Origin: Effrenium voratum
Taxonomy: Eukaryota; Sar; Dinophyceae; Suessiales; Symbiodiniaceae
DNA: 64,000 nt
Direction of reading: 5' to 3'
NCBI GenBank assembly: GCA_963377175.1
Contig: CAUJNA010003793.1
Location: 145,001 to 209,000, forward strand
Shown here: piece after piece, positions 29,786 through 53,640 of the stretch
Numbering within the stretch: the first letter of the stretch is position 1
Layout of the letters: each line of letters opens with the position of its first letter
Made by a program: the position numbers and the translations under genes
Notes under the pieces: model-generated
What the model saw: the letters and a program-made list of their open reading frames with translations, nothing else
The model's database searches: none
What the model was told of the DNA's origin: nothing

Positions 29786-31569
29786 CTAGCAAGTCAACGG
29801 TGTCGAGCTTGGTGGGCCCACAGTCTGATCTGGAAGGCTTCTCGTACCATTGCACCCGGAAGCAAAGTAGTTGGCGCAGCCCAAGAACTTTGACCCATCG
29901 CTTCTGTTGGCGCGCTCCACCATGCCACCACCACACTTGGGGCAAGAAGGGCTTGCTGCCGCTGGGGACGGCTGCTGAAACGATGTCGAGCTTGGTGGGC
30001 CCACAGTCTGATCTGGAAGGCTTCTCGTACCATTGCACCCGGAAGCAAAGTAGTTGGCGCAGCCCAAGAACTTTGACCCATCGCTTCTGTTGGCGCGCTC
30101 CACCATGCCACCACCACACTTGGGGCAAGAAGGGCTTGCTGCCGCTGGGGACGGCTGCTGAAACGATGTCGAGCTTGGTGGGCCCACAGTCTGATCTGGA
30201 AGGCTTCTCGTACCATTGCACCCGGAAGCAAAGTAGTTGGCGCAGCCCAAGAACTTTGACCCATCGCTTCTGTTGGCGCGCTCCACCATGCCACCACCAC
30301 ACTTGGGGCAAGAAGGGCTTGCTGCCGCTGGGGACGGCTGCTGAAACGATGTCAAGCTTGGTGGGCCCACAGTCTGATCTGGAAGGCTTCTCGTACCATT
30401 GCACCCGGAAGCAAAGTAGTTGGCGCAGCCCAAGAACTTTGACCCATCGCTTCTGTTGGCGCGCTCCACCATGCCACCACCACACTTGGGGCAAGAAGGG
30501 CTTGCTGCCGCTGGGGACGGCTGCTGAAACGATGTCGAGCTTGGTGGGCCCACAGTCTGATCTGGAAGGCTTCTCGTACCATTGCACCCGGAAGCAAAGT
30601 AGTTGGCGCAGCCCAAGAACTTTGACCCATCGCTTCTGTTGGCGCGCTCCACCATGCCACCACCACACTTGGGGCAAGAAGGACGTTGCTGGCTTGCACC
30701 TGTGCCTAGTTGTGAGTCATGTTCTGTAGCCTTTGGACTCTCATTGTTCAAGACTTGCACCTCAACCTCTTTCCCTTCAAATCGTGGATCAAATCTCTGC
30801 AAGAAGTATGGCAGCGCAGGCTCCTTGTGCTCTTGCCTGTGAATGAACCCAAAGTACAGGTTGGGGACCCGCACTGAAACTGATAGCTTCTTCTGAAGAC
30901 GCCTCTGAGCCTCCTTGATACACCACAATCGGTGGTTACCCTCCACCACGTAGAGCTCACCATGGAACCGGACAGCCGTCAACTCCAGCTTTCTGAAGCT
31001 TTCCTGACCTGTGACCAACTGATCAACCAACTCCTGTAGTTTAGCACCTGGCTGCTTCCCATGTTCCAAGGTGTCCGAAATGAAAGCCTTGGCAAACCGA
31101 AGCTCCTCGCAATCCACTTCTTCGACCTCGCCTCTACCTGCAATTCCCCTCACAGCCTCAGCAGCTGCCGACCATGAACCCAGGTGCAAATCGGACAAGA
31201 GTTTTGTCCTGGTATCTAAGCACTGCTGGCACTTCATATGGCCTCTTAAACCTTGGATGGCTTCTTTCACCTTGGCTTCCTTATCTGCGTCAGTCATGGC
31301 TTCTGAAATGTTGCGCTGGAGCTTTCGCAAAAGCGCATGGTTTTTGCGAAGCTGGCGCTTCGGGCAACCCTGCCCGTGCTCCTTCCATTGCAGCAGCTCT
31401 TCCCGGAAGAGGACCCAGGGAAAGCTGGGACTCGGATCTTTCTTCTCCAATGAGACGCCCTGATCCACGTACTTCATATGCCAAGCCGCCAGCGCAAGTT
31501 GGGTCAGGGTAAAATTCTGCCGCTCGACTTCTTCTTGGACTCGCTTTTGGAGGTGCGTGAGCCATTCAC
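29786..31569 (-). CDS. ParB-like domain protein with five topoisomerase-type C4 zinc fingers, terminal exon
   Basis: The frame is open from the acceptor CCCTAG (exon start 31569) to a stop at 29786. An internal ATG lies at 31477, but coding sequence continues upstream of it (ERQNFTLTQLALAAWHMKYV), so that ATG is not the real start. Numbering from the internal ATG, residues about 165-210 contain VRFHGELYVVEGNHRLW, a ParB/sulfiredoxin-like nucleotide-binding motif. From residue 268 come five copies of a 61-residue unit. Each has CPKCGGGMVERANRSDGSKF followed by LGC and a further Cys (C-x2-C-x18-C-x7-C), the topoisomerase zinc-finger pattern. The fingers suggest nucleic-acid binding; the ParB-like fold suggests nuclease or NTP binding. 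The exact role is unknown. The upstream exon at 31940-31792 joins in phase. Confidence 0.88.
29803..30700 (-). repeat. 183-bp coding tandem repeat, five units
   Basis: The word TGTCGAGCTTGGTGGGCCC recurs at 29801, 29984, 30167, 30350 (one base changed) and 30533, an exact 183-bp period (61 codons). Units are almost identical at the DNA level, including silent sites. This implies very recent expansion or gene-conversion homogenisation. Confidence 0.95.
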
Positions 31570-31791
31570 CTAGGGATGCTTGAGCGGGAAGAACAAGCAG
31601 GGAATGAACAATTGTTTGCTAAATCATACGAGAACCATTTCAAAACAACTTCCTGTGCGTGTTGATATTGGGACCCTTTCGCCATTGTTCTTCTTACATT
31701 CTACCGTGCATCTTGGTGGCGTGCCCATTTCTTGGAGGGAATCCAACGGTAAATGACTTCAGACCATTTGGACCAGTTCACCTCGCAGCTC

Positions 31792-35131: not shown

Positions 35132-36410
35132 CATGATCATCATCCGGGAATCAGCTGCGCACCCACTCAAACCCAGTTTCTGCACCCAATTTTCCAGTCA
35201 CTTCCGCAATTTCCTCCCACAAAACGCGCGCCCGCTCAGCACTGCGGACGCCCGCGAGAGCCAGACCAGAGGAGGAGGGGTGGAGGGGGCGGTGGGGTGG
35301 GGCAATCGCGTTCCCTGCCCAAGCAGCTGCCCGCTAGCGCTGCACACACGCTAGACAAATGCTAAGCAAACCTGCTCAAGCGCACCCGCTCAGCAGGGCT
35401 CCCCGTAGTCAAGACACATTCGCACGGCGCCACAGCGAGAGCTCCAACACAATGACCATGAGACGGGGTGCAAAGGCGACAGAAAGCTCGGGTGCAAAAC
35501 ATCATCGTCGTCGTCGTCGTTGTTGTCATCATCATCATCATCATCATCAACATCATCATCATCATCATCATGTGTCACATCACCTTTGGACAAAGAACGG
35601 TTACCCTATGGGCTGTGAGTCAAGAGCCTGGTAATGCAGTGACCGTCAAGACAGAAACTGTCAAAACTAGTCGAGTCCAGGAAACAATGGGTGCTGGTGC
35701 GGGTCGAAGCCACACAGGAGCAATTCCAAGTGAGTCCCGATGTACGTCTTTTGGCTCCAGATTTCGGGCTCAGTCCTTCGCAGCCAGATATAGGGTGGCG
35801 GGGCACCATCTACCCAAAATGGTGCGTCGAGAAACCATAGGGAAATCCAAACACTTCAGATGTATTCAGGCGTGAAAGAGAAACGTGGAAACGCTGAAAT
35901 CCAGTTAATTTCGGCCAAAAAACACCCCATGGTTGGAGGTACACTGCTACCCCCAAGGTTTAGACACCCCGCACATGGTCTTCTCATCATGCAGGTCGTA
36001 ATAGAGCCCATCGAAGGCACCCGCCCTGAAGCCATCCATTCGGCTCACCCTCCGCAAGTACCTCGGATCGAGAGAGTTGGCGGATCTCCGGGTTGAAGAC
36101 CCATGGGTTGGTTCATGGGGATATGTACAAGATAACCCGCTATTAAAAATACATGGTTTCCTGTAGGCTTTTTTTTCATATGTCCATCCGTTGAGAAGAC
36201 CTGCGCAACATGTTCCGGGGGCGAAAGGATGGAACGCAAACTTGAAACCGCGCATAAATATACAAATATGCATCTATGAACCATCATTTTTGAATATCGT
36301 TTCAACTCGATGTTGAATAGCCTATTAAATACTGAACCCCCAGGTTCACATGACATCGCTTGATACGTTGACAATTGAATTTCAGCAAGTCCAAGATGCC
36401 TTTTATGCCC
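33870..36410. other. No gene recognised; two (ATC)n microsatellites
   Basis: (ATC)n occurs at 35055-35130 and (GTC/ATC)n at 35504-35571. A small direct repeat, GGGTTACGTC[AG]AATCC, occurs at about 34090 and 34130. The segment 35.2-35.4 kb is GC-rich but shows no convincing exon. Confidence 0.5.
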
Positions 36411-36416
36411 CTGCAC

Positions 36417-36865
36417 CAGCGCCTTCATATCACACTGAGCAGCTTCCAAGCGGAGGATCACATCCAGCCCCAAGGAGGTGGGCCGAACTCGGCTGAAGCT
36501 CAGCACTGACAAGCATTCCTGTGAAAAATCTGTGGCCCCAAATTTCAGCATGGTCTCGGGCACCTCCACTTTTCTGGAGCCCTTGAGCCGTGGGCTGGCG
36601 ATCAGCATGCCCTTCAGCCCAGAGCAACGGATCTGCGCGGAATCCCCAACCAGGCGGTTGAGGCCAAAGGTCTCGCAACCGCCGGCTGCGGCGGCCAACA
36701 TCTCCAGGATTTCGGGGTCCGCTTCGCCCGCGCCGTCGTCGCGGATGAGCTGCTCGTCCACGAAATCCGGCACGACTTGGATCTGGAGGTGGACGGCCTC
36801 CAGGGTTTGCGGAGAAATAGCCAGAATATGTGATTGGTAGTTGAAAACGAGACGTATACAGTAGC
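36417..36865 (-). CDS. Cellular RNA-dependent RNA polymerase (RDR-type) fragment, one exon
   Basis: This 449-bp exon lies between TTTAG and the donor GTGCAG. It contains AQIRCSGLKGMLIASPRLKG, then VPETMLKF, and then LSVLSFSRVRPTSL followed by a leucine-rich helix. These correspond to the eukaryotic RDR family series QIRYGGxKGxxxxDP, LRPSMxKF, and the 'W/S-R-Y-xP-x-LNRQ' helix near the start of the catalytic half. The catalytic DxDGD block is not in this exon and was not found nearby. RDR enzymes make double-stranded RNA for RNA silencing; that role is inferred from family. Flanking exons remain unplaced. Confidence 0.6.
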
Positions 36866-37741
36866 CTAAACCACGTAGCAGTACAGAAATGTATATTGGA
36901 ACATAACTACTTCAAAGGGATTCTAAGGAGCAAGAAGCTTCGTGTTGGTTCACGCACAATACTCCCAGAGCAAATAGAGTTTGCTTTACAACCAATTTGG
37001 ACCGGGCCTCCATGTAGACAATCATGGATGAAAACAGTTGCTTTACTCGCGCTCTCAAGCGGAACGTGGGATTTGGGATCTGCGCTGTGGCTTTCTCCAA
37101 CCTGGCAAGCAGGGCAAACGGGTTGATTCACAAGGGTTGCTTTCGGGTGATTAAACATGGCAGTGGGGAACTAAAATTTGCGGTAGGAAAATCGTCGGGA
37201 ATCAATTCATGTCCCATTGCCAAAAACAATTCTTGGTTGGATGCCAACTGTTATTACACCGCCGTGCCAACAAACCGCTACGACATGTCTTAGTGGTCGA
37301 GTTCATCTGTCTTTCGAACATGATGCTAACTATTCGAAGTGTGAAATTGTATTTGTGTACACGATGCCAGGGAACGACTCTTATGATTGAACATAAAACC
37401 TGCCATCAATCAACATATAGTCGTTGCAATGTTCAAAACTGTCGTTGGAGCAGCTACCCAGCCGTAGAAGCAACCCTATTATATCGTATACTACTGCCTT
37501 ATTGCGCCGATAAAACAGATACTCCGATATGTTGATAAATTCCATGTCAGATAGATGATACATGTGTTCGTTTTACATTAAGCCATATCACAGAACATTG
37601 CACGGCTATACATATTTTTATAATTTGGTTGTATGGCCATGATTGGCCATGGGTTAAAACTTTGGTGTTGGCCATCCATTTGCAGCCTCTGGAGGCTATG
37701 GTACCATTTTGGCCCCATGGCCATACATCATCCTTCATCAC

Positions 37742-37999: not shown

Positions 38000-39161
38000 C
38001 TCAGATTTCCTTTGCTCCAGCTGGCTGGAGGTCCTGACTCTAGAGTCTCTAGAAAGGAGGTGGCTAAACAAATGCAGAATAACAAGTCGGAATGGTTCAG
38101 AACGGGTAAGTTAAGATGGCGAAAACATAGTCTGTGAACGGCTCGTAAAAGGGTCAAGAAAGGCGAAGAGATGACACAACATATATAACTGATTCCTACC
38201 CGAACCAACAAGAATAGAAAGCAAATAATATAGATTTACTTATTGCTGTTGGCCTCTGGTAACCTGGCGCGGCCCTTGGCAATTCCTATTTCCAAGTAAG
38301 CGCATGAAAGCATTGCTGGGATTTCCATTGCAATGCCCAAGTGTAACTAAATGGCGAAATACCAAGCCAGGATAAGTATGACGATGCAAACACTGTCAAT
38401 ACGCTTGGGACGAGTCATGTGGCATATCCAGTGTCATAAACCCACATTTGGTAAGCTTCGCATTGATTGTTCCAACAATAATCAGAGTCAAGTTTGTTGT
38501 TGGGCATGCCTCGCCATGATAGGGTCCTAGTGATTCGTGATGCGCCTTCAAGTGCATGCAACTATCATCAATACCACCGAAGTATATATTTCGCAATAGT
38601 TCACATGATTTCACATATATGTTTCTTGATTGTCAACACCTAATACCGCCTAATACTAAGCCTACAACAAAAACATGTCAAGCCAGTGTGTGAACTTGGG
38701 ACCTACATTTACCCATCAAACATGCTGCCGTAGTTGGTTGAATCCCGCAGGGCCTGTAAGATCCGGATCGATTCAACAGGTAAAATCTGGATCCACTGAG
38801 CAACGCCTAGTGGAAGTGACGATATGGCCATGGGTTTAGTTATCATTAGATTTCCATTACAAAATTAATTTTTGGGACGCATAGCCATATTGCTGAGTTG
38901 ACCAGTTAACGGGATAACCGTGGTTGGAATGGTGGTTACTGACTACCTATATCCGGAGGCCCCCATATTGGGAATCCTTGCATCAAGCCGTCAAAGTCCG
39001 CAGGAGAACCACTGGATGACCATTCATTTTGTCGGAACAGATGCAAAGGGTGACTGAACATGGCATTTGGAGTCCTTTTGAGCGGACTTTCCTTTGCCAT
39101 GTTACGTACTAATGCAATACTCGACTCGACGATAACAACATATCCGCCCCACTGCCCCAGG
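38000..39161. other. No gene recognised
   Basis: Moderately AT-rich sequence left of the retrotransposon, with scattered short frames and no motif or notable repeat. Confidence 0.5.
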
Positions 39162-39364
39162 TGCCTATCCCCGAAGGGAACTGGTACCCTGTGGTAGTAG
39201 AGGTCGTTGTGTTGGTCCCTGGATCTATTCCGGTATTCCGGAGAGAATCCAATATGCCAATGTGGATGATTGGAGGATGGATTGTCCCTGGTGGATTGTC
39301 TTGTGGATAATCCTGGAAGCGGCCTGCTAAGGTTCTTTTGCTTCACGCGATCATGAATGATGCA
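39162..39364 (-). repeat. 3' LTR
   Basis: On the plus strand it runs from TGCCTATCCCCGAAGGGAAC to ATGATGCA, so the ends are TG and CA. It matches the other LTR apart from a few substitutions and an 8-bp repeat of the TATTCCGG type near 39226. Similarity may extend about 10 bp further left (CCACTG). Confidence 0.88.
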
Positions 39365-39381
39365 ATGATACACAAAAGGGG

Positions 39382-39401
39382 CCTTGAGCCAAATGTTGCG
39401 G
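39382..39401 (-). other. Possible relic of the dinoflagellate spliced leader
   Basis: The minus strand reads CCGCAACATTTGGCTCAAGG. This differs from the dinoflagellate spliced-leader sequence, as I remember it, by two substitutions and two single-base losses; the 3' GGCTCAAG is exact. It sits just upstream of the 3' LTR. It could be chance. Confidence 0.4.
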
Positions 39402-39651: not shown

Positions 39652-40191
39652 TCAAAAGGTGATGTGCAACGCTATGTACACGCGGGACGATTGTGAAACT
39701 ATTGATCTCTCACTCATGGTATAGTCTTGTAGACGGCGAGGCGTATGAATCTTCATGGTCAGTTGGATCGACGATACCATCGGCGGCTGCTCCGTCGGAT
39801 TGACTGCCATAGTCTCCATAATCATTCCAGGTCGCGCTGCTATAGTCCTTCCACTGCTTCTGATGTCCCCACTGCTTAATGTAGTCCTTGTACTCCTGCG
39901 GGGTCCAGGCTTGTTTCTTCTTGATGTACTCCTGGTATCTCGCAGAGCTGCATTGCTTGGTTGCAGATTTTCTGCGGATGAGACCTGGTAATCGAATATG
40001 GCCTTGGTTGGATGGTTCCGCATGAATTCCAGTTGTTCATCATCCATGCCGTTCATCTCGTCCTTCCGGAAAGCCTGGATGTTCGTTTTGCCCCATCCAA
40101 ATACGAAAGTCATCATCACATCTGGGAATGTTCGATCATATCCTGATCCACACTTCATGTACGATGACGGACAATGGATGTTAGGGTGCAC
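39652..40191 (-). CDS. Retrotransposon 3' frame, possible EEP C-terminal region
   Basis: The first half has coding character: CPSSYMKCGSGYDRTFPDVM, then FVFGWGKTNIQAFRKDEMN and EFMRNHPTKAIFDYQ. The rest is basic and low in hydrophobics, likely out of frame. It follows the GDxN segment after a one-base shift. No independent family is recognised. Confidence 0.45.
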   Translation of the reverse strand: MHPNIHCPSSYMKCGSGYDRTFPDVMMTFVFGWGKTNIQAFRKDEMNGMDDEQLEFMRNHPTKAIFDYQVSSAENLQPSNAALRDTRSTSRRNKPGPRRSTRTTLSSGDIRSSGRTIAARPGMIMETMAVNPTEQPPMVSSIQLTMKIHTPRRLQDYTMSERSIVSQSSRVYIALHITF

Positions 40192-41405
40192 GAAGTCTCC
40201 ATTGCATACTCCATTCTGTCCACGAGTGGCAAATCTTTCGTTTCATTCCACAGGCTCTGATATGCTCTCATGAGGATGTTCACGAGACCGTTGGCCGGAT
40301 TGAAGACGTGCTGGAGTTTGCTGTAGGTGTTCGCTGATTTGTTGGCGTCTCCGGTGATCGCATCACATCAGTACAAAGTCACGAGCGGCATGATTTCATT
40401 TTGAAGATCTTCCCTTGCTGCTCCATGGCTAATTGAAGGATGGATGTGGAAAACTCCAATGGTAGCGAATGGGAGATCTGCCCTCGTTATGTGGCGGTCG
40501 TCATACTCGTGGAGTGACTTGTTGGATGATTTCAGGATCATGCCACGAAACTCATCACTCTGCTCGATATGGCGGCCATGTCCTTGGACAATGGTGCGTG
40601 TTGGCAATCTCGGTCCAATGTACTTCTTGGATTCAGTAAACATGGATGGTCCTGTGGTTGCCAAGCAATCCGAGGTCGGAATTTCGTATTCGGGATCAGT
40701 GCAACTTCCTTCAGTTCCGAAGAAACATCTGAACATTCCGAATGTGGTTCCCCAATTCTGGCTCTTGGTGGAAATGTGTCTTGCCAGAAGTTCCACTCTT
40801 GCAGAAGGTCCGCCACGGACAAAGCATGCGATCGGTCTGGATGACCATTGCTTGATCACGATGCCCTTGTAACCGTATCGGATGAACGTCTTGATGAGCT
40901 CCCTGGATTTCTCATCATTAGGACTGAAGAATGCGTCTGCTTCATTCAGGCATAAGATGTGTGCACTGTTCTGCATCATCATCTTTACGATCGGTCGATC
41001 CTTCATCGGCATGTTGTACACCTCCCTGTTGTCCAGCTTTGGATTCCTTGTGAGGTTTCCATGGTTCAGGGTAAGCATGTTGATCGCTATGGATGAGGTG
41101 AACTCATGCATATTGAGATAGTCCACAGGAGGACGGTCGGTCGGCTGCGTCAGCGATCCCAGGATATCGGCATAGGCTCGGATGATTTCCGGGTCATCAT
41201 GTGACCTGAGCTTCTTCAATCCAAGCGGAAGCTTAATCGGATATCCGGATCCTGGTTGAGCTTTCTTGTACTCGTCAATGAATGCCGTCTCTTCTTGGTC
41301 TCTGAGGAAGTATCTTTTTCCTTGCTGTGCTTGGTGGAATTCACATAATTGAAGAAGGCATCGGCAAATTCGCGGATCTTGGTGTCGTACATCTCGAATC
41401 TTCAT
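40191..41405 (-). CDS. EEP (endonuclease/exonuclease/phosphatase)-like protein of the retrotransposon, interrupted by TGA
   Basis: The frame overlaps the end of the Tpt1-like frame by 65 bp. After a charged N-terminus it reads SSIAINMLTLNHGN (first EEP strand), AHILCLNEADAF (the 'LQE' metal-binding Glu position), GYKGIVIKQWSSRPIACFV, later ATIGVFHIHPSISHGAAREDL (the 'HL' strand). An in-frame TGA then follows LVTLY at 40368. The same frame continues as CDAITGDANKSANTYSKLQH, which carries the GDxN catalytic motif. A frame change near 40190 leads to a further frame ending near 39652. EEP proteins cut or dephosphorylate nucleic acids or lipids; which applies here is unknown. Either a damaged gene or recoding. 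Confidence 0.65.
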
Positions 41406-43203
41406 AACTGAGATGCTTCTTCATGATCCACTTGTTGCTCGCCATGAGGCTGCCATCAGGTTCAAATGCTGCGACAATGTTCCTGGTTTTGTCTGTCAAC
41501 GTTGTTCGCTCTTCGGAGAGTCGGATGCCATAGTCTTGGTCCTTGAGGAATGCAAGGATCAACAGTGCATCTCTTCCTGCTGGCACATGGGTCAATGCGG
41601 CTGACTCATCGTCGTCAAGGATGACGTCATCGATGCGTGCCATGTGGACGTGCATTCTCCCCGAAGGGTTTGACTGGGATTTCCCAGATTTGAGCCCGTG
41701 CTCGATGATGCTGAAGAGATGATTTCCATAGGTTGCATGGAACATGAATGTGATGGGCTTCTTCGCGAACGGCTTGATTTTTCTCTCTTCTTCAATGGTT
41801 GGTGGTGCCGGCCTTCGCATTCTGTGCTTGGGCTGAGCTGTGCCTTCATCTTCATGAGGCGCCTCGGATCTTGACGGATGCGGACTTGGCGGAATAGATT
41901 CCGGTGGTAGATCATAGTCCGGTTCGTCGTGTTGAGGCTCTTTCTGCTGCTCAGAGTACAGGGGTCGTCCAAAGGATTGGATCTCGACTTGTCCTGTGTG
42001 TCCGCTGTTGCATCTCACGTAGAACTCCATCTCTGGATCGACATAGAATTCCTTGCCATCGGGCCTGAGTGCATTTTGTGCGGATCTTGTGGTAAGCTTG
42101 TCGATCCATCGATTCCTTGGAACAATTTCTCCCCGTGCCTTGCGCTCCTTATATGGCCCGTCCACGGATGGAAATACGAATGCAATTTCGAAACGTGATT
42201 TTCCATAGCTCGGGAACATAGCCATCAAGAGAAGTCCTGGCTTATTTCCAATGAAGTTCCTGGCATGTGTGATGCAGGTCAATGCGTCATAGAGCTCGAT
42301 GGATCCATCAGGACCCATGTCCACTGGTCGTTCGCATTCCTTATGGATTCCATGCCTTGGATCATGTCGAAGACATCCGGAAAATGATCTGCTCATTCTC
42401 TCAATTCGCCAGAGGATGAGATCTGTGATCTGTTTCGCCTTGGATGGATCCATGCGGAAGTATTTGCAAACCTGTTCGACATTCTGGACGGTCTTCTCGA
42501 GATCAATGTTGCCTTTGTGGCATACCATCGGGATGATGTCGGTTCCGTAAACTTCGGATTGAGCATTGGTGTAGCAGCAGATGCTGTAGACCTTCTTGAT
42601 GAAGTCCATGTATTGCTTCTCCGCATGATGTCCTTCACCTTGGAGTGTTGGCTGCCAGTAATCGTTGAATCTGGCCTTCAACCAGAATACCTTAACTCCA
42701 TGCGGTCTCTCATGCTCAGGAACGAAGTGGAAATCCGGATTGACATCGAGGATGGTTGAGCATTCCCTGTAGTACTCGTACACAAAATTCAGGAATTTTG
42801 AGTTTCCGAAAGGTGCGGGGTGTACGGATTCCTTCTGGAGGCTGATGTTTGTATCCGATCCATATGTTACAAACCACCGATCATTGGATGTGAGAACAGG
42901 CCGCATCACTGGTCGCCTTGGAAGTGCAGGTCGATCACCAGGATGATCGTCGGATTCCGTCTCTTCATCCAGGATGTTCTTTGGTGCTGGCTTGACCTTG
43001 GAGACAAGCCTCAATGCTGGTGGCGGTGACTTTGGAACAAGTTTCGGATGCGGCATCGCCTTTGACGTAGGCCTTCCTGCGGGAGGATGCCCTTCTTCAT
43101 CTGAATCATCGTCGTCGGAATCTGGATCATAATCAACCTGCTCCATGTTGACGTTCTCGGGTTGCTGAGAGGCGGATGGATTCTCATCGGCGACTTGCTC
43201 CAT
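41341..43203 (-). CDS. Tpt1/KptA-like RNA 2'-phosphotransferase carried by the retrotransposon
   Basis: An intact 620-codon frame starts at an ATG followed by an acidic, Pro-rich tail (residues 1-105). Residues 106-260 form an unrecognised globular region. The Tpt1/KptA motif series follows: CLRHDP (277-282), KSRFEI (335-340), VRCNSGHTG (396-404; family R-x-x-Q-GHS), FHATY (488-492; family HGT), HGL (502-504), GRMHVHMA (515-522; family R-x-HIH-A) and AGRDALLIL (542-550). Family enzymes use NAD+ to remove an internal RNA 2'-phosphate in tRNA splicing. Usual length is about 200-250 residues; here the two lobes are separated by a Pro/Glu-rich insert (about 410-480). Position between RNase H and the 3' LTR, same strand, indicates element cargo. 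Activity is inferred only from motifs. Confidence 0.82.
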   Translation of the reverse strand: MEQVADENPSASQQPENVNMEQVDYDPDSDDDDSDEEGHPPAGRPTSKAMPHPKLVPKSPPPALRLVSKVKPAPKNILDEETESDDHPGDRPALPRRPVMRPVLTSNDRWFVTYGSDTNISLQKESVHPAPFGNSKFLNFVYEYYRECSTILDVNPDFHFVPEHERPHGVKVFWLKARFNDYWQPTLQGEGHHAEKQYMDFIKKVYSICCYTNAQSEVYGTDIIPMVCHKGNIDLEKTVQNVEQVCKYFRMDPSKAKQITDLILWRIERMSRSFSGCLRHDPRHGIHKECERPVDMGPDGSIELYDALTCITHARNFIGNKPGLLLMAMFPSYGKSRFEIAFVFPSVDGPYKERKARGEIVPRNRWIDKLTTRSAQNALRPDGKEFYVDPEMEFYVRCNSGHTGQVEIQSFGRPLYSEQQKEPQHDEPDYDLPPESIPPSPHPSRSEAPHEDEGTAQPKHRMRRPAPPTIEEERKIKPFAKKPITFMFHATYGNHLFSIIEHGLKSGKSQSNPSGRMHVHMARIDDVILDDDESAALTHVPAGRDALLILAFLKDQDYGIRLSEERTTLTDKTRNIVAAFEPDGSLMASNKWIMKKHLSYEDSRCTTPRSANLPMPSSIM

Positions 43204-43543
43204 GGGGCAGTCTGATGTCTCATCTTCTGGATCGTCCGAAGATCATATTGAGAATGGGCATGTCTTCGAAGTGATCGAGCATACAAGATTGCAAAGGTCG
43301 GATTGGTTGTAAACCGAAAGTGGCTGCGGATGCAGACACATATTTCTTGAGATTCAAAATGGGTCAAGTGCAAACACGCGCATCACGGAATTGAGGAATT
43401 GAACATATGCAAAACGAAAAACTCATGCATCAGAATTCGTGGACATGCGGATCATGCCCAGGTTCCCCAATAAGCAAACATGGATTCTGCTATACCGACT
43501 CCTGCAAAAGCAAGGATGTCGGGTCCGTGCTTCGTGTTGCGTG

Positions 43544-44137
43544 CTACCACTCAACCAAAAATGCCTTGTTCTGCAACATGGTACGGAAGGGTGGATGTGC
43601 ATCTACATTCAAGAGATTGCCGGTGAGGACGGCCTTGATGAGCTCGTCTGCTTTAGCTGAATGCTTGGTCAGCGAATCTGCCAGACAATCTTCACTCCGT
43701 ACATGTGCAAGGTCGTGCATCTGTCCACTGTTGCTTTCCTTTCTCAACATCTGGATCAAATGCATTGTTTCTTTCTGTTCCGGTTGATGTGTTGTGGATG
43801 CTGTGGTGACAAGATTGTTCGCATCAGTGCGGATGTGTACATCTGCAATTTCGCCCGTTATGTCTGACCAGAGGCCGCGAAGAAATAATGCTGAACCGTA
43901 ACAACGCATTAGTCCGTGCAACTCTGCAACAGTAGTGGACATGGTTGTGGCGGTGATCTTGTGCGTCTCATAGTCGACCAGTGAGCCTCTCGAGTTCGAT
44001 GAGCCCTGGCGAAGATCTCTTTGTTCTGCAAGAAAGATAACACGCGCACGATGGGATGACATATCCTCGTTGTTGCGATAGGATGCCTCTGGATAGCCAA
44101 CTACGCGTGTCTTGCCACGAAGGGGCCAGAATCTCAT
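43544..44137 (-). CDS. Copia RNase H
   Basis: Read after a frame change from RT. It contains VVGYPEASYRNNED (family GYSDASxAxxED, so the first catalytic Asp position reads Pro-Glu), TVAELHGL (catalytic Glu), HIRTDANNLV (catalytic Asp) and EDCLADSLTK. It degrades the RNA of RNA/DNA hybrids during reverse transcription. The altered first motif may mean an inactive copy or a sequence error. Confidence 0.85.
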   Translation of the reverse strand: MRFWPLRGKTRVVGYPEASYRNNEDMSSHRARVIFLAEQRDLRQGSSNSRGSLVDYETHKITATTMSTTVAELHGLMRCYGSALFLRGLWSDITGEIADVHIRTDANNLVTTASTTHQPEQKETMHLIQMLRKESNSGQMHDLAHVRSEDCLADSLTKHSAKADELIKAVLTGNLLNVDAHPPFRTMLQNKAFLVEW

Positions 44138-45399
44138 GCTAAGCGGGATGCTTTTGATGGTTCTGACTGTCTTATTATAATGGCGCGAACGTCCTCAATG
44201 GTCGCTGATGATGTCTTGGATGCACACCTGGAGAATTGATAACCAATGTGGAACTGCGTTCGCGACTGTAACCAGTTGATCTGACCTAGGACACTTCTGT
44301 ATGCAGTATGCATTTGTGGAGTAAGAGGAGTGTCGTCCTTCAGGTGTTTGTCAAAAGTGATCTCCTGCAGTTCGTCGATGGCAACATTCTGATGAACATT
44401 GATGTACCAACCGTGCTTGTCATCTTGCTTCCATTGGATGCGCTGTCCTACGAAGAGGCAATCATTTTTGTCCTCGGAACCAACCTGAAAATCTTTCCGA
44501 AGTCGTCCCATGATTTCCTTCTCGAACACGTCATCCCCCGTCATAAGAAGATCATCTACATGAAGAGACAGTGCTCCATGAACTTGTCGATTCTTGGCAT
44601 TGTTACCAGAAACAGGATCCATGAGGTAATCAACTGCTCCTTCGAGATCGAAAGTTGTGGATGACTTCTTTTCACTCACCAATGCGGGCTTCGGAAGCTG
44701 CTTGCCGTAGTACACGTATGTACAACGGTCTGCCCGGGTTGGCACCAGTCCATAGGAACGAAGTGCCGAGTCAAGGATGTTCCACCATCTGCGGGGTGCG
44801 TCATTCAGCCCGTAGGCAGGCTTCTTCATGCGCGCTCCAATGTGTGGTGGATATCCCATTTCAGGAGGTATCTGACAAATGATGTCACGAGACTGATCGT
44901 ATGCTTCGCCTTGGAGAAATGCTGTCTTCAAATCCATGTGGAATATATTCCAGCCTTTATTTGAGGCTGCTTGGATTGCAAGGCGGAAACCACTCCTGGA
45001 TGCAGCAGGACTGTCTGTCTGCTGATCATTCTTCTGCTTGTCTTGGAAGCCTCGGAGGACCCAGCGAGCCTTGGTCTTCAGGAAGTTACCATCCTTGTCT
45101 CGCTTCAGGGTTAGAACCCAGCGACCGGTGACCCAGTTCCTGACCTGAATCTTGCGTGTATCGACTAAGTCGAACACTTCATTGTCAAGCCATGATTTGC
45201 ACTCAAGCTGCTTGGCTTCTAGGAATTGCTTCTGATAAGCTCTTATTTCCGTGGCTGTAGCTTCCTTCCGCTTCTTGCCAATGAGTGCGGATGTGGATGA
45301 AGCCTTCAAGGATTCTTGATTGGATGAATACAGAACTAAGAGTGCACGGTCATCGTCGGTCATGTTCTTGCATAACTGGTCAACATGATTCTGATCCAC
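44134..45399 (-). CDS. Copia reverse transcriptase
   Basis: A 421-codon frame with the copia RT order: NWVTGRWVLTLKRDKDG (88-104), FHMDLKTAFLQGE (153-165, first catalytic Asp 156), KKPAYGLNDAPRRWW (192-206) and SLHVDDLLMTG (278-288, catalytic DD; His replaces the common Tyr), followed by the thumb and the connection GQINWLQSRT. It synthesises cDNA from element RNA. The frame ends in a shift just before RNase H. Confidence 0.95.
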   Translation of the reverse strand: MDQNHVDQLCKNMTDDDRALLVLYSSNQESLKASSTSALIGKKRKEATATEIRAYQKQFLEAKQLECKSWLDNEVFDLVDTRKIQVRNWVTGRWVLTLKRDKDGNFLKTKARWVLRGFQDKQKNDQQTDSPAASRSGFRLAIQAASNKGWNIFHMDLKTAFLQGEAYDQSRDIICQIPPEMGYPPHIGARMKKPAYGLNDAPRRWWNILDSALRSYGLVPTRADRCTYVYYGKQLPKPALVSEKKSSTTFDLEGAVDYLMDPVSGNNAKNRQVHGALSLHVDDLLMTGDDVFEKEIMGRLRKDFQVGSEDKNDCLFVGQRIQWKQDDKHGWYINVHQNVAIDELQEITFDKHLKDDTPLTPQMHTAYRSVLGQINWLQSRTQFHIGYQFSRCASKTSSATIEDVRAIIIRQSEPSKASRLA

Positions 45400-47568: not shown

Positions 47569-48883
47569 AGGAGCCTGGTTGCTCCTTCTGCAAGGTCTTC
47601 TGGTAATAGAAGATCAATTCCGGGTTTCCCCGGAGGGATGGTCTCATCCTTCCTGAGCTTCGTCATGTTAACCTTGATGAGTCGAGTCCCAAGATCAAGT
47701 CCTACCATCGCTCCTTCAATGGAAATGACCTTTCCTTTTAGCCATATTCCTCCCTTGCTTCCATCGGAACGGATCTTGGATTTGTCTTCCTGCCAGTAGA
47801 ATACCTTGTCCTTCACCTGAAGGGCTTTGAACTCATTCGGAGATTTTGAGCAAGGTCTCGTCGGATGTCTTCGGATTGACGTGCTTCTTGGAAAGCTTGC
47901 TTTGACAGCTGCTTGATCTGGATGGCTGTCAGCTCTTCTTCATTCCTGTCAATCGTCAACTGAGTTGGTGTTGCGACATCGAGTTGGATGAGATCTGCTG
48001 GTCGTCTTCCGAATGCGAGCTCCAATGGTGTTACACCCCCGTAGGTGACGGTCTGATTCCTGACAGTTGCAGCGGCCTTCGCTAGCTGCCTGTATGTCAC
48101 TTTCTTCAGTGTTGCAGGTGCTGTACCTGCTTTGATGGAACTTAGCATGATCTTGAGTTGTGCCTTCAGGAGTCGAACTGCTGCTTCAGCTCGATTTGGC
48201 CATGGTGTATTCGGTCCCAAGGATATCGGTGTGATGTCAAGGGACTGATAGAAATGTTCCCATGTATCTGTCATGAAGGCTTGATCTGCGACAACTGATT
48301 TGTGCAAGTGGTACTGGTCAAAATAGTTCCTGAGGACAGTGATGTTCTCGGCTTCTTGCGTAGTTGTCACTGCCTCTGCAGTGAGCAATGTTGTTGCTCC
48401 ATCCAGGATGACAAGAACAATGATGTGTTCTCCTGTTCCAAGAGGAACTTGACAGTGATCAATGAATGTCATGTCACCAAAGGTGTCCGCTCGGAGTCCA
48501 CTTGTTTTGCTTCGTGATGGTGCATGTTTTGCCGCTTGGCAAACTTCACACTCACTTCGGATCTTGTCAAATAGATCGAATGTTGATTTCGGCAAATGAA
48601 GTGCGCGGGTTCTAAATCGAAATTGATCTGTTGTCATGTGATGATGCTGCAGGTGGAGTTTCTTCAACTCTTCGGGATTTGACAATCGCTTGTGGATTCT
48701 GCCTAGGGCAAGCGGAAGCGATGTTGGTTCTTCTGAGGATGGTGCGAAAGGATCTGGCTCAATAGTCGACCGGCCCCTCTTGTCGATGATCCTGTCTGCT
48801 GCCGATCCTGAACCTGCTTCTTCGTCCTTAAGTGAATTGTCCGCGAAGGTGAAAATGGTCTTACCTGTCCACAGGTTAATCAT
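47526..48883 (-). CDS. Copia integrase
   Basis: Two overlapping frames. The zinc-binding H-H-C-C region is LHLQHHHMTTDQF with CEVCQAAKHA. The catalytic D,D,E triad is visible as MTFIDHC, SVVADQAFMTD and PWPNRAEAAVRLLK. The second frame (47816-47526) has a C-terminal barrel-like segment, VFYWQEDKSK with KGKVISIEGAMVGLDLG. It inserts element cDNA into chromosomes. Confidence 0.92.
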
Positions 48884-48921
48884 CGGTTTATTTGCCTGGG
48901 ATGTAAGTCTCCAATTGTCTT

Positions 48922-50146
48922 CTAGAATGTCTGGATCTCCACCTGCGGATGCATCAATGATTTCCGTAGTACGTTCTCGGCTAATGTGATCAGGATTGAT
49001 TGGACATTCCTTGGCTCCATTTGGTGTGAACAGCGCCTTTTAATGTGCACACGGATGAGCTGCTTGTTCTTCTTGTCAAGGATCCAATGGTCCTGCTTTT
49101 GGGACCCAATGATCTTAGGAGTTGCTAGGCCCTCCTTTGTCTCGGGTGATTTTGCTGCACAAACAGTTTCGCTCTTGGTGAGATCCCCGGAGGGAAACTT
49201 GATGCTGTTATCATCGTCATAGACATAGTTGATGAGGCCCTTGTGAGCAATGTCTCCATGCGCCTTCACTCTTGCAACTCCAGCGAGATCGACGAGTGCA
49301 TGTCCTGTACCAGATACCGGAACTGCTTGACGGTTCATGCCAAAGGCTTTGCATGTGATCTTGTCACATTGAGCTGTGTGCTCGATAGTCATGTAGAGGT
49401 TCCGCATCTGGCTGATGCTGAGTAGGATTGGTACAGTTCCTTGTTCAAGGACGTCGATGTTGGTTGGTACTGCATGGAGGAGTTGTGTGATATCGAAGAT
49501 GCAGGGTCCAATTTACCCTGGCGGTCTCTCCATTTGCAAAAGTGAACTTGGTCTCGGCTGGGATGTACTCATAGGAGATGATGTCCTTCATTGGTTCGAT
49601 GGCCTGAGTAAAACGCTGGATTGCATGCCAGCTGCCCATAGATCTGGTACATCCATTGTCCAGAATCGCATAGGTCGGGTTGTGCTGAGGGTTGATGACA
49701 GGCGCCATCAGCTTTGTTGCCAGAAGGCTGTGATTTGTTGTGACGGACAGATTGTGTTCTGAAACTGTATCTGATTGGATCAGCTTCTCGTGGATGGCCT
49801 TTTTCCCAGGATGCTCATATGCATCATGGAATGCCATTAACGCTTGTCCTGTGCTGGATGTCTCATGGGATGAGTACCAGCCATGTTCGTTCCATGTCCA
49901 TGATTGATCCCAGTCTTGGTCTGTCCAACCGGCATAGGTAGGCTCCATGGATGGTGCAGTCTGCTGGATGGCGGGCTGCTCCTCCGTCTTCTCTGCAGTG
50001 GCTGCAAACGTCTTGGATTTTCCTTTCTCCTGTCCGCTCTTTCCCTTGCCACTCTCATAGGATGGAGAACCTTTGTTTCCATCATAGGGATATATTTTAA
50101 TTTTGATTTTCCTTTCTTTCCCTTCTTTCCTTTGCCTTTTCCCCAA
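48922..50146 (-). CDS. Copia protease region
   Basis: Two frames (50146-49445 and 49407-48922) joined by a shift near 49.455 kb. A Lys/Gly-rich gag tail is followed by NPTYAILDNGCTRSMGSWHA, the retroviral-type aspartic protease active-site region. The usual D-[ST]-G reads D-N-G. The flap-like ETKFTFANGE follows. The second frame has EQGTVPILLSISQMRNLYM, the last protease strand. It cleaves the polyprotein. Confidence 0.8.
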
Positions 50147-51312
50147 TATGCCTGGTCGTAGGGGTCATAGTTTTCGTTGGCCATATTGGCCTTTCCGCCA
50201 GAACCGCTTTTTCTGAAGGGTTTAAAGCCACCTCGTTGGTGACTGTCCTTTTTGTTTCCTGATTTTCCTTTTCCTTTTCTCTTCTTGAACTTGAAGTTCC
50301 GCCCCGACACTTTTCTTGCTATGAACGCATCGTTCTCCTCGAGGACCCAGAACGTCTTTTCATCGTTGTTTGACATGAATCCTTCAAGTCCTTCTTCATC
50401 CTCAACCCAGAGGCCTTCTTCTCCTTCGTATTCACCTTGTTCGATGATGAAGAATGTGTTGCTTCGGTTGCCTCCTTGAGGTCGGATGGATGGATCTTGG
50501 ATCGATGTTCTCGTCGTGATGAAGAGTTCATGGTAGTGCGTCTTCAGCATCTCATAGGAGTAGTTTTCTAGTGAGATGTTTCTCAATGACCTTGCACTTG
50601 TCAGTCTTTCTCGTTGCTGATCTGACAGCTCACTTTGAATAATGAAAAACTGTGCAATGAGATTATCCCCGAAGGGAAGTGCGTCCCGCTGTCTGTCCTG
50701 CATTCCTTGGATATACTGTCTGAGGACTGTCGGATTGAGCAGGGCTGGAGGCGGTGCTCGAACACCGGCTGCTTGCTGATGTCGAGCAATTGTTCTTGCA
50801 TTTGCGTCCTGTACGGACTGTCGAAATGATGGGGACTGTGCCGTGAAAACGGGCATCAAGTCCATCCATGCTACCTTCAATCTCATAAGAAGGATTTCGA
50901 ATTTTGAGGTAAAAATGAGGAACTCTTGGTTCTGCCTTCTACTGTTGAAGAAACTGAGGAGCCTGTACAGATACACGTTGGTCGCACCTTTCAAAAAGTA
51001 CTTCTTCAGCGTGTTCTTGAAATAGTTGACTCCTTCATCAGGATCTTGCAAAAGGTCGTTTTGGAGGACCGCCTTGTACATATATGCATCTCCTGTTAAT
51101 CTGCTTTTGAGCAGAGGTCCTCTCTTGGGTGCTTCCACCGTCGTGATGGTCACCCAATCGTCCACGAGTTCTTCATACCTGAACCAGCTGACTTTTCCGT
51201 CGTACGATGGCGGCTGCTTGGCGGTCATCGTATAGCCTGGATTTTTGGCCATACTTCTCCATCGGATGACATCTTCCCTTGGATCTCTGCAGAAAACCCG
51301 CTCCGCTACCAC
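50090..51312 (-). CDS. Copia gag-like protein
   Basis: The frame opens just inside the 5' LTR. It contains KVSWFRYEELVDDWV, LKSRLTGDAYMYKAVL and YFKNTLKKYFLKGATNVYLY, a helical capsid-like region, then a basic Lys/Gly-rich tail (FKFKKRKGKGKSG, GGFKPFRKSGSGGKA). No CCHC zinc knuckle was seen. The true reading probably shifts frame near 50.09 kb into the protease frame. Confidence 0.82.
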
Positions 51313-51321
51313 CCACTGGGG

Positions 51322-51517
51322 TGCCTATCCCTGAACGGAACTGGTACCCTGTGGTAGTAGAGGTCGTTGTGTTGGTCCCTGGATCTATTCCGGAGAGAAT
51401 CCAATATGCCAATGTGGATGATTGGAGGATGGATTGTCCCTGGTGGATTGTCTTGTGGATAATCCTGGAAGCGGCCTGCTAAGGTTCTTTTTGCTTCACG
51501 CGATCATGCATGATGCA
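51322..51517 (-). repeat. 5' LTR
   Basis: Direct repeat of 39162-39364, sharing GGAACTGGTACCCTGTGGTA through GCTTCACGCGATCATG. Differences are a handful of substitutions and short indels, which suggests a fairly recent insertion. Confidence 0.9.
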
Positions 51518-51739
51518 ATGCTCGCGCGGTGATTCGAAGACGCTTCACTAAAGCGCAACTCAGTTTGTCAAAAACATTGGGGTGTTCGATTCCCCCCGGG
51601 TCCGCTTTCGCATCCTTAGCAGCTCCAGCGGCACATCGCCAGCATCACCTGCATCATACGCATCAGCGCCTGCCAAGGATGCGGATGATGCAAGTGGTGC
51701 TGGGGATGTTGCCCATGCTGGTGAAGGAACATCTGGAAA

Positions 51740-53640
51740 TGAAGGAGGGAAAGTGGGGAAAGGATCTCAACAGGGAAAGGGAAATATCGGAAAGGGGAGA
51801 AGATCTGGGAGAAAAGGACTTAGGGGGGAAAGGGGGGAAAGGATCTCAACCGGAAAAGAGGGGAAGGATCTTAGGGAGGGAAATGGAGAAAGATCTCAGG
51901 GGGGGAAAGGCCTTAGGGAGGAAAGGGTCTCAACAGGGAAAGGGTGGGAAAGATCTTAGGGAGGAAAGGGAGAAGATCTGAGGGGAAAGGCCTTAGAGGG
52001 AAAGGATCTCAACCGGAAAAGAGGGGAAGGATCTTAGGGAGGTCAAGGGAGAAGATCTCAGGGGGGAAAGGGGATCTCAACATGGAAAGGTGGGAGAAGA
52101 TCTTAGGGAGGAAAAGCGAGAAGATCTCAGGGGGGGAAAGGCCGTAGGGGGCAACAGGGAAAGGGGGGATAACATCTTAGGGAGGAAAGAGAAGATCTTG
52201 GGGGGAAAAGGCCTTAGCGGGGAAAGGGGGGGAAAGGATCTCAACAAGGAAAGGGGGGAAAAGATCTTAGGGAGGAATAGGAAGATCGCGGGGGAAAAAA
52301 AGGCCTTAGGGGGGAAAGGGGGGAAAGGATCTCAACAGGGAAAGGTGGCAAAAGATCTTAGGGAGGAAAAGGGAGAAGATCTCAGGGGGGGAAAGGCCTT
52401 AGGGGGGAAAGGCGGGAAAAGATCTCAAGATCTCAGCAGGGAAAGGGGATCTTAGGGAGGAAAGGGAGAAGATCTGGGGGCAAAGGCCTTAGGGGGGAAA
52501 GGGGAGAAATGATCTCTACAGGGAAAGGGGTGGAAGAGATCTTAGGGAGGAAAGGGAGAAGGGGGGAAAAAAGGCCAACAGGAAAGGGGGGGAAAGATCT
52601 TAAGAAGGAAAAGGGAGAAGCTCTCAGGGGGGGAAAGGCCTTAGGGGGGAAAGATCTCAACAGGGAAAGGGGGGAAACAATCTTAGGAAGGAAAAGGGAG
52701 AAGATCTGGAAAGGCCTTCGGATAGGGGGGGAAAGGATCTCAACAGGGAAAGGGGGCAAAGGATCTTAGGGAGGAATAGGGAGAAGATCTCAGCGGGGGG
52801 AAAGGCCTTGTCAACAGGGGAAGGGGGGGAAAGGTCTCAGGGAGGAAAGGGAAAAGATCTCCGGGGGGGGGGGGGGAAAGGCCTTAGGGGGGGGGGGGAA
52901 AGGGAGGAAAAGGGAGATGATCTCAGGGGCGAAAAGGCCTTAGGGGGGAAAGGAAAGGATCTCAACAGGGAGAGGGATCTTAGGGAGGAAAAGGAAACTC
53001 AGAGGGAGAAAGGGCCTTAGGGGGGAAAGGGGGAATGGATCTCAACAGGGAAAGGTGGCAAAAGATCTTAGGGAGGAAAAGGGAGAAGATCTCAGGGGGG
53101 GAAAGGCTTTAGGGGGGAAAGGGGGGAAAGGATCTCAGCAGGGAAAGGGGGGGAAAGATCTTAGGGAGGAAAGGGAGAAGATCTGGGGGCAAAGGCCTTA
53201 GGGGGGAAAGGGGAGAAATGATCTCAACAGGGAAAGGGGTGGAAAAGATCTTAGGGAGGAAAGGGAGGATCTGGGGGAAAAACGGCGAACAGGGAAAGGG
53301 GGGAAAGGGAGAAGGTCTCAGCAAGGGAAAGGCCTTAGGGGGAAAGGGTGGGAAGGATCTCAACAGGGAAAGGGGGGAAACAATCTTAGGAAGGAAAAGG
53401 GAGAAGATCTGGAAAGGCCTTCGGGGTAGGGGGGGCAAGGATCTCAACAGGGAAAGGGGGCAAAGGATCTTAGGGAGGAATAGGGAGAAGATCTCAGCGG
53501 GGGGAAAGGCCTTAGGGGGGAAAGGGGGGAAAGGATCTCAACAGGGAAGGGGGGGGGAAAGATCTCAGGGAGGAAAGGGAAAGATCTCGGGGGGGAAAAG
53601 GCCTTAGGGGGGAAAGTTGGGGAAATTCCGAAGGGACGCA
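51740..53640 (+). repeat. 1.9-kb purine-strand minisatellite
   Basis: Tandem, variable units of roughly 80-110 bp are built from words such as GGATCTCAACAGGGAAAGG, GATCTTAGGGAGGAAA, GAGAAGATCTCAGGGGGGGA and AAGGCCTTAGGGGGGAAA. The plus strand is almost wholly A and G, with G runs of 5-14. Lys/Gly/Arg-rich plus frames and Pro/Phe/Leu minus frames are artefacts. It begins about 220 bp after the retrotransposon. Confidence 0.92.

Follow-up and report, generated by a model that had tools for sequence, protein, structure and literature searches.

A Tpt1/KptA-like domain in a probable third gene of a multi-copy Ty1/copia-type retrotransposon of the dinoflagellate Effrenium voratum

A 64,000-nucleotide stretch of the genome of Effrenium voratum (contig CAUJNA010003793.1, positions 145,001 to 209,000; hereafter the window, in whose numbering all coordinates are given) contains, on its minus strand, a 620-codon open frame situated between the RNase H region and the 3′ long terminal repeat (LTR) of a 12.4-kb retrotransposon of Ty1/copia type. 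Part of this frame almost certainly encodes, as judged from homology, a domain related to the RNA 2′-phosphotransferase Tpt1/KptA. The frame itself is probably the middle of a longer open reading frame, ORF3, a third gene of ~1,400 residues lying between pol and the 3′ LTR of a multi-copy Ty1/copia family; that same grade, good but less than full confidence, applies to the whole explanation, in which ORF3 is a gene of the element and acts as an enzyme. The presence of a Tpt1/KptA-like domain in a copia-type element is well supported because sequence homology, conserved catalytic residues and the existence of many copies come together. The parts of ORF3 in the window are as follows.

39788–43363, minus strand: remains of ORF3, traced by tblastn with the open 1,379-codon ORF3 of copy L102, with several frameshifts and a gap.
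41341–43203, minus strand: the reported frame, 620 open codons (stop-to-stop span 41341–43242), covering part of the N-terminal region and the Tpt1-like domain.
41998–42420, minus strand: Tpt1 RNA lobe (LRH...SRFEI...R-x3-GH), frame residues 262–402, N-half profile match E = 8e-5.
41440–41748, minus strand: Tpt1 NAD+ lobe (HAT...GL...GRMHVHMA...LTD), frame residues 486–588, C-half profile match E = 1.3e-8; the best PF01885 stretch is residues 476–523.
39788–41318, minus strand: EEP-like remains; frame P0002 contains NHGN, NEAD and HIHPS, the rest being in other frames.

PF01885 was the sole Pfam family matched by the 620-codon frame (P0001) up to E = 10 (E = 8e-4, 19.9 bits). For profile–profile comparison, a Tpt1 reference profile of 42 sequences was assembled from 40 of 80 fetched bacterial Tpt1 loci, minus two with stops, plus four references including E. 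coli KptA. The Tpt1 region of the element matched this profile with a probability of 94 (E = 1.1e-7), versus 0.1–0.3% for eight controls (the N-terminal region, the EEP-like region, the reversed profile and five column shuffles). When the two halves of the domain were compared separately, each matched its own counterpart at the E values listed above, whereas the crossed halves gave E values of 0.41 and 0.24. Along the frame, the family motifs follow one another as LRH (residues 278–280), RFEI (337–340), R397-x3-GH (GH at 401–402), HAT (489–491), GL (503–504), GRMHVHMA (515–522) and GR (543–544). An initial annotation of this DNA, made from the sequence alone, had claimed the complete Tpt1/KptA motif order; every motif was found in its place, with the spacing it gave as R-x4-GH corrected to R-x3-GH.

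An Arg-His-Arg-Arg tetrad and an NAD-site HGT motif with its His and Thr are described for Tpt1 in the portion of PMC6333775 consulted. In a full-length alignment, R279, H280, R337 and R516 fell on the tetrad, and H489 and T491 on the HGT motif. Among 21 copies, the first three tetrad positions (R/H/R) were each kept in 21/21 and the fourth Arg in 19/21, with the NAD-site His present in 20/21 and the Thr in 21/21; 10 of 13 key columns were invariant, versus 57% of the columns of the region. In five deeply divergent sequences all 12 chosen Tpt1 residues, the counterpart of R544 included, were invariant versus 33% of columns, and none of 20,000 random sets equalled this, the key residues having been picked from PMC6333775, the reference alignment and the motif list of the initial annotation, partly after the fact. 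A chance motif match was ruled out by the profile controls, the crossed-half test and this residue-invariance randomisation.

Several observations weigh against the Tpt1 assignment and its enzymatic reading. PF01885 stayed under its gathering score (26) in every protein scanned, the best being the homologue P0003 (23.7 bits, E = 5.7e-5), with other homologues scoring lower and several giving no PF01885 match at all; the PF01885 search that the initial annotation had proposed thus yielded a match to the frame, at the E value already given, that lies below the curated cut-off of 26 bits. NCBIfam ranked a plant DapB model (E = 0.011) above KptA (E = 0.2), both far under cut-off. The confident part of the profile alignment comprises 33 columns around HAT–HVH, the remainder coming from the forced full alignment and the half test, and the domain, owing to insertions, greatly exceeds free Tpt1 in length. 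A sequence search of the PDB with the element proteins produced no sensible match. As to the catalytic residues, two of the 21 copies have T or a gap in place of the fourth tetrad Arg, and the homologue P0078 has G there; HGT is replaced by HAT or HVT, with Ala or Val in place of Gly; and R544 (in GRDALL) aligned three columns off the Tpt1 Arg with which it had been equated by eye. The sampled copies, moreover, had been picked for similarity and long frames.

The tblastn alignment placed both the start and the end of the 620-codon frame at frameshifts, making it one piece of a broken ORF3, and homologues of the reported frame continue beyond its end. The initial annotation had described an intact frame of 620 codons: the open frame is real, and an intact gene of that size was ruled out by boundaries that are frameshifts within a ~1,400-codon ORF3. 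This longer frame and its second, EEP-like half had been overlooked, a fragment being taken for the gene. In layout, ORF3 runs from an acidic, proline-rich N-terminus through a conserved region of unassigned kind to the insertion-bearing Tpt1 domain, which a charged linker joins to a probable EEP (DNase I-like) hydrolase domain. Open ORF3s of 1,379 and 1,381 codons were present in two fetched copies of the subfamily of the window's element, and of 1,393 and 1,407 codons in two fetched copies of a second subfamily, that of P0078, in which five loci matched nearly all of P0078 without an internal stop (open frames of 1,411–1,435 codons). ORF3 identity between the two subfamilies is ~48%. A 4,239-codon frame at one locus was discarded, as it runs into a stretch of N.

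Copies were sought in the same 1.16-Gb genome, and all copy counts are lower bounds. With P0001, 71 of 2,885 candidates were scored and gave at least 76 matches; with P0078, 33 of 3,217 were scored and gave at least 47. Twenty copies were fetched, selected for long frames and a spread of identity. Reverse transcriptase (RT) was found upstream in 18 of these, partially in some (for L102 none was found, and L110 has N there), and LTR sequence lay downstream of the ORF3 region in 20/20; at the two P0078-subfamily loci tested, RT ~95% identical stood upstream in both. A second sample was drawn by RT, as the 20 best RT loci from 99 scored of 2,996 candidates. In 14 of them, the window's own included, an ORF3 match lay close downstream (by eye). 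Among the other six, three retained both Tpt1 lobes (two of these in broken frames or lacking the first part of the region), one had the RNA lobe only, one the ORF3 end only, and one nothing within the 2.5 kb read; in total, the Tpt1 region was present downstream, in whole or in part, at 18 of the 20. With many genome matches flanked by RT upstream and LTR downstream, the frame recurs in related copia copies, and the initial annotation's alternative of a frame found only here was excluded. Insertion of a single host gene was likewise ruled out by the multiple copies, the open and divergent ORF3s and the linkage seen at RT loci.

The remaining parts of the element in the window, all on the minus strand, are given below.

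51320–51520, minus strand: 5′ LTR, by alignment with the 3′ LTR and repeat families D11, D12 and D14.
47816–49039, minus strand: open frame upstream of RT, the copia order, with a weak integrase-core match that falls short of the cut-off (PF00665 rve, E = 0.018).
44137–45399, minus strand: reverse transcriptase RVT_2 (PF07727, E = 1.4e-19, 71.1 bits, above cut-off).
43455–44185, minus strand: RNase H region and pol end, by tblastn of the L093 pol frame; RNase H is assigned by position, without a Pfam match.
39160–39367, minus strand: 3′ LTR, by alignment with the 5′ LTR and repeat families.

The position given in the initial annotation, on the element's strand between RNase H and the 3′ LTR, agreed with this map, which has RT on one side of the frame and the 3′ LTR on the other. 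The LTR pair aligned with 197 of 209 columns identical (3 substitutions, 9 gap columns). Over 45411–44179 the window's RT and the open pol frame of copy L093 share 97.6% identity, and the stretch 43547–44137 in the RNase H region was matched in 19 of the 20 fetched copies. Inspection by eye revealed neither a clear target-site duplication nor a clear polypurine tract. Directly after the 5′ LTR, at ~51295–51320 on the minus strand, lies GGTGGTAGCGGAGCGGGTTTTC, which looks complementary to the 3′ end of initiator tRNA and which we take to be the likely primer binding site.

The second half of ORF3 is a probable EEP-like domain, by sequence comparison. After the Tpt1 domain come the motifs NHGN, NEAD, VFHIHP, GDAN and (D/E)SH-x-P, in an order (N, E, H, GD-x-N, final H-x-P) that we take to be that of the EEP (DNase I-like) family, and the N, E, H, H, D and N residues of this half were invariant in the five deep sequences. 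A first profile comparison with five EEP proteins gave a probability of 2.1. A profile was then built from E. coli YbhP and YafD with eight plasmid or phage relatives, to which three AP-endonuclease-type proteins were added for a block test. Against the assignment, the whole EEP-like region scored 23.0, barely above the maximum of 40 shuffles (21.0). The block test replaced this whole-region comparison, with block borders set after the motifs had been seen: block 1 matched its own EEP block at E = 2.7e-4, a score reached by 0 of 60 shuffles; block 2 did so at E = 0.018 (2/60 shuffles), narrowly ahead of the next best block (0.032); and block 3 at E = 0.08 (3/60), again narrowly ahead (0.10). 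The insert between the EEP blocks matched no EEP block. Pfam scans of seven members of the EEP-half alignment found no family at all up to E = 10; further Pfam scans of ORF3-type proteins gave no EEP match, with some chance-level matches to unrelated families, and a PDB sequence search with this half gave unrelated matches only, at E > 1. A JAMM-type peptidase, considered by eye on the HIHP motif, was dropped, the flanking motifs being closer to EEP. This half of ORF3 resembles the EEP superfamily (Exo_endo_phos, PF03372) in motif order and in the match of the first block; it differs in a ~120-residue insert between motifs, in the lack of a Pfam or PDB EEP match, and in having D-S-H or E-S-H where the family ends in SDH. 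Protein searches returned 63, 24 and 191 relatives, 120 of the 191 being listed. One of those listed, P0098, shares 60% identity with the EEP-like half and lies on a 1,872-base contig of source 'lgn', the other 119 being of source 'ena', a hint of wider spread of the EEP-like half.

Selection was estimated from the ratio of nonsynonymous to synonymous divergence (dN/dS, Nei–Gojobori estimates), values that are near saturation in places and come from copies selected for open frames; the window's copy was included in every set except EEP. Median dN/dS was 0.058 for RT (10 copies, 38 pairs), 0.032 for RNase H (14 copies), 0.252 for Tpt1 (21 copies, 190 pairs), 0.255 for the N-terminal region (20 copies) and 0.211 for EEP (5 copies, 10 pairs). 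The comparison among copies that the initial annotation had suggested therefore returned, for Tpt1, a median below 1. Within ORF3, the pair L125–L126 gave 0.09–0.16 in the Tpt1 lobes and EEP motif blocks versus 0.36–0.42 in the linkers, and the pair L110–L102 gave 0.14 in the NAD lobe and 0.10–0.22 in the EEP blocks versus 0.57 in linker 2; the RNA lobe of the latter pair (0.35) exceeded linker 1 (0.17), a less clean picture that counts against the explanation as a whole. Synonymous divergence differed between ORF3 and pol of the same elements: RT dS was 0.236 for L123–L124, the portions of the L125 and L126 elements that lie upstream, versus 0.59–1.52 by region for ORF3 in L125–L126. In the window's subfamily the gap was smaller (L093–L109: RT 0.31, Tpt1 0.44, EEP 0.55). 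The mismatch would reflect either exchange between elements, separating ORF3 from pol, or constrained synonymous sites in pol.

Two strings resembling the dinoflagellate spliced leader flank ORF3.

43346–43362, minus strand: spliced-leader-like CCATTTTG-AAT-CTCAAG, just before ORF3 (1 match, 0 in 100 shuffles, with a pattern drawn up after seeing the match).
39383–39395, minus strand: spliced-leader-like CATTTGGCTCAAG, adjoining the 3′ LTR (an exact match; 11 of 100 shuffles had a 13-mer match at up to 1 mismatch).

The leader, DinoSL, is given as DCCGUAGCCAUUUUGGCUCAAG in the portion of PMC6050394 consulted. Full DinoSL had no match in the window at up to 3 mismatches, and its last 15 bases had an exact match in 0 of 124 loci. 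DNA around 43346–43362 is largely conserved between subfamilies, the leader-like part less so; this string could be the mark of a captured mature mRNA or a trans-splice site. A (C)CATTTGGCTCAAG-like string stood ahead of the 3′ LTR in 21/21 copies by eye, diverged in L112.

What ORF3 does for the element is proposed here from its domains. In Tpt1 enzymes the RNA 2′-phosphate attacks NAD+, according to the portion of PMC6333775 consulted. The Tpt1 domain, with NAD+, would act on a phosphate at the RNA 2′ position or at a nucleic-acid end, the outcome being either its release as ADP-ribose cyclic phosphate or an end capped with ADP-ribose; the EEP domain would hydrolyse a phosphodiester or an end phosphate. 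Together, the two might heal or protect the ends of element RNA, cDNA or the tRNA primer, or counter an RNA-cleaving host response. Such nucleic-acid end processing to the benefit of the element is held tentatively, at slightly below an even chance, and RNA is favoured over protein as the target because the 2′-phosphate-binding tetrad is kept. A more specific version is doubtful: an RNA-healing enzyme, in which 2′-phosphotransferase and EEP phosphatase/nuclease would mend or cap RNA ends that had been broken or marked (the element's own genome, the tRNA primer) and so evade an RNA-cleaving host response, the gene having come from a spliced-leader-bearing mRNA and later been exchanged among copia lineages. 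Retargeting of the Tpt1-like domain as an ADP-ribosyltransferase of another substrate (a protein, for instance a host factor, a DNA end or a 5′-phosphate), with the EEP domain an endonuclease for integration or for cutting host RNA, has a low probability as well. The NAD+ lobe of Tpt1 is related to ADP-ribosylating enzymes, according to PMC6333775; the insertions may alter substrate choice, and ORF3 evolves faster than pol and has maybe been exchanged between elements, as host-facing genes do. Yet the Arg-His-Arg-Arg residues that bind an RNA 2′-/3′-phosphate are kept, and these would be superfluous in a protein-modifying enzyme.

The same faster evolution, the location between pol and the 3′ LTR and the long acidic and W/Y-rich ends would also suit a protein in env position that is mainly envelope-, capsid- or scaffold-like and uses its enzyme folds for binding, not catalysis; the catalytic columns rank with the most strongly conserved, and we consider such a role improbable. 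That ORF3 is a captured host or bacterial gene riding along without use is very improbable. The dS mismatch between ORF3 and RT in one element pair means that their histories may differ, the spliced-leader-like string just before ORF3 is what a captured mature mRNA would leave, and dN/dS is ~4 times that of RT. A passenger would decay, however, and this reading is disfavoured because open frames, residues and low dN/dS persist: ~1,400-codon frames are open in lineages ~48% identical, none of the 12 chosen residues varies, and two pairs give the Tpt1 lobes a dN/dS of 0.13–0.35.

Around the element, a minus-strand open frame beyond its 3′ end (36048–36911) matched, above cut-off, the cellular RNA-dependent RNA polymerase family PF05183 (E = 5.9e-9), and a 610-codon minus-strand frame at 29789–31618 carried repeated topoisomerase-type zinc ribbons (PF01396, E = 1.8e-30, 5 stretches). 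Directly outside the 5′ LTR, on the plus strand at 51727–53633, imperfect repeats, often ~26 bases apart, form a long G+A-rich array.

Compared with Tpt1/KptA (PF01885), the ORF3 domain shares the lobe order, the tetrad, and the NAD-site His and Thr, with R-x3-GH and HVH aligned; it differs in being embedded in a ~1,400-residue retrotransposon protein, in its long insertions, in HAT/HVT for HGT and in scoring below the PF01885 cut-off. Searches of PHROGs, of phage records with P0001, and of viral contigs with KptA, XthA, A2 and YbhP, gave no lead. The nearest precedent found is in Symbiodinium, where, in the portion of PMC5890265 consulted, SymbioLINE-Dnmt and SymbioDIRS-Dnmt3 carry a DNA methyltransferase (DNMT) under purifying selection and Copia elements are without DNMT. 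ORF3 is like these in the uptake of a nucleic-acid-modifying enzyme and in purifying selection, and unlike these LINE and DIRS elements in that it belongs to a copia element, where the Tpt1-like domain occupies an ORF of its own behind pol; no cytosine methyltransferase domain was matched by Pfam in the ORF3-type proteins scanned. It also resembles LTR retrotransposons with additional ORFs, as presented in the consulted portion of PMC7264820, in having an extra ORF outside gag-pol; the words phosphotransferase, ADP-ribos- and endonuclease are absent from the main text of that paper. None of the open-licence papers retrieved was, to go by its title, about a Tpt1- or KptA-carrying retrotransposon, and dinoflagellate-restricted queries came back empty. 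Retrotransposons with enzymatic cargo are thus a known kind, and the predicted Tpt1-like cargo was not found described before.

Tpt1 is known chiefly for its part in tRNA splicing; its presence in organisms that lack a matching ligase still calls for an explanation. A mobile element that has preserved the catalytic residues of Tpt1 through deep divergence would argue independently for a selectable function beyond tRNA splicing, in the repair of RNA ends or in ADP-ribosylation. The finding would also extend LTR-retrotransposon cargo to an enzyme class new to it, and a many-copy family in the genome would make possible a direct assay of NAD+-based nucleic-acid chemistry in transposition.

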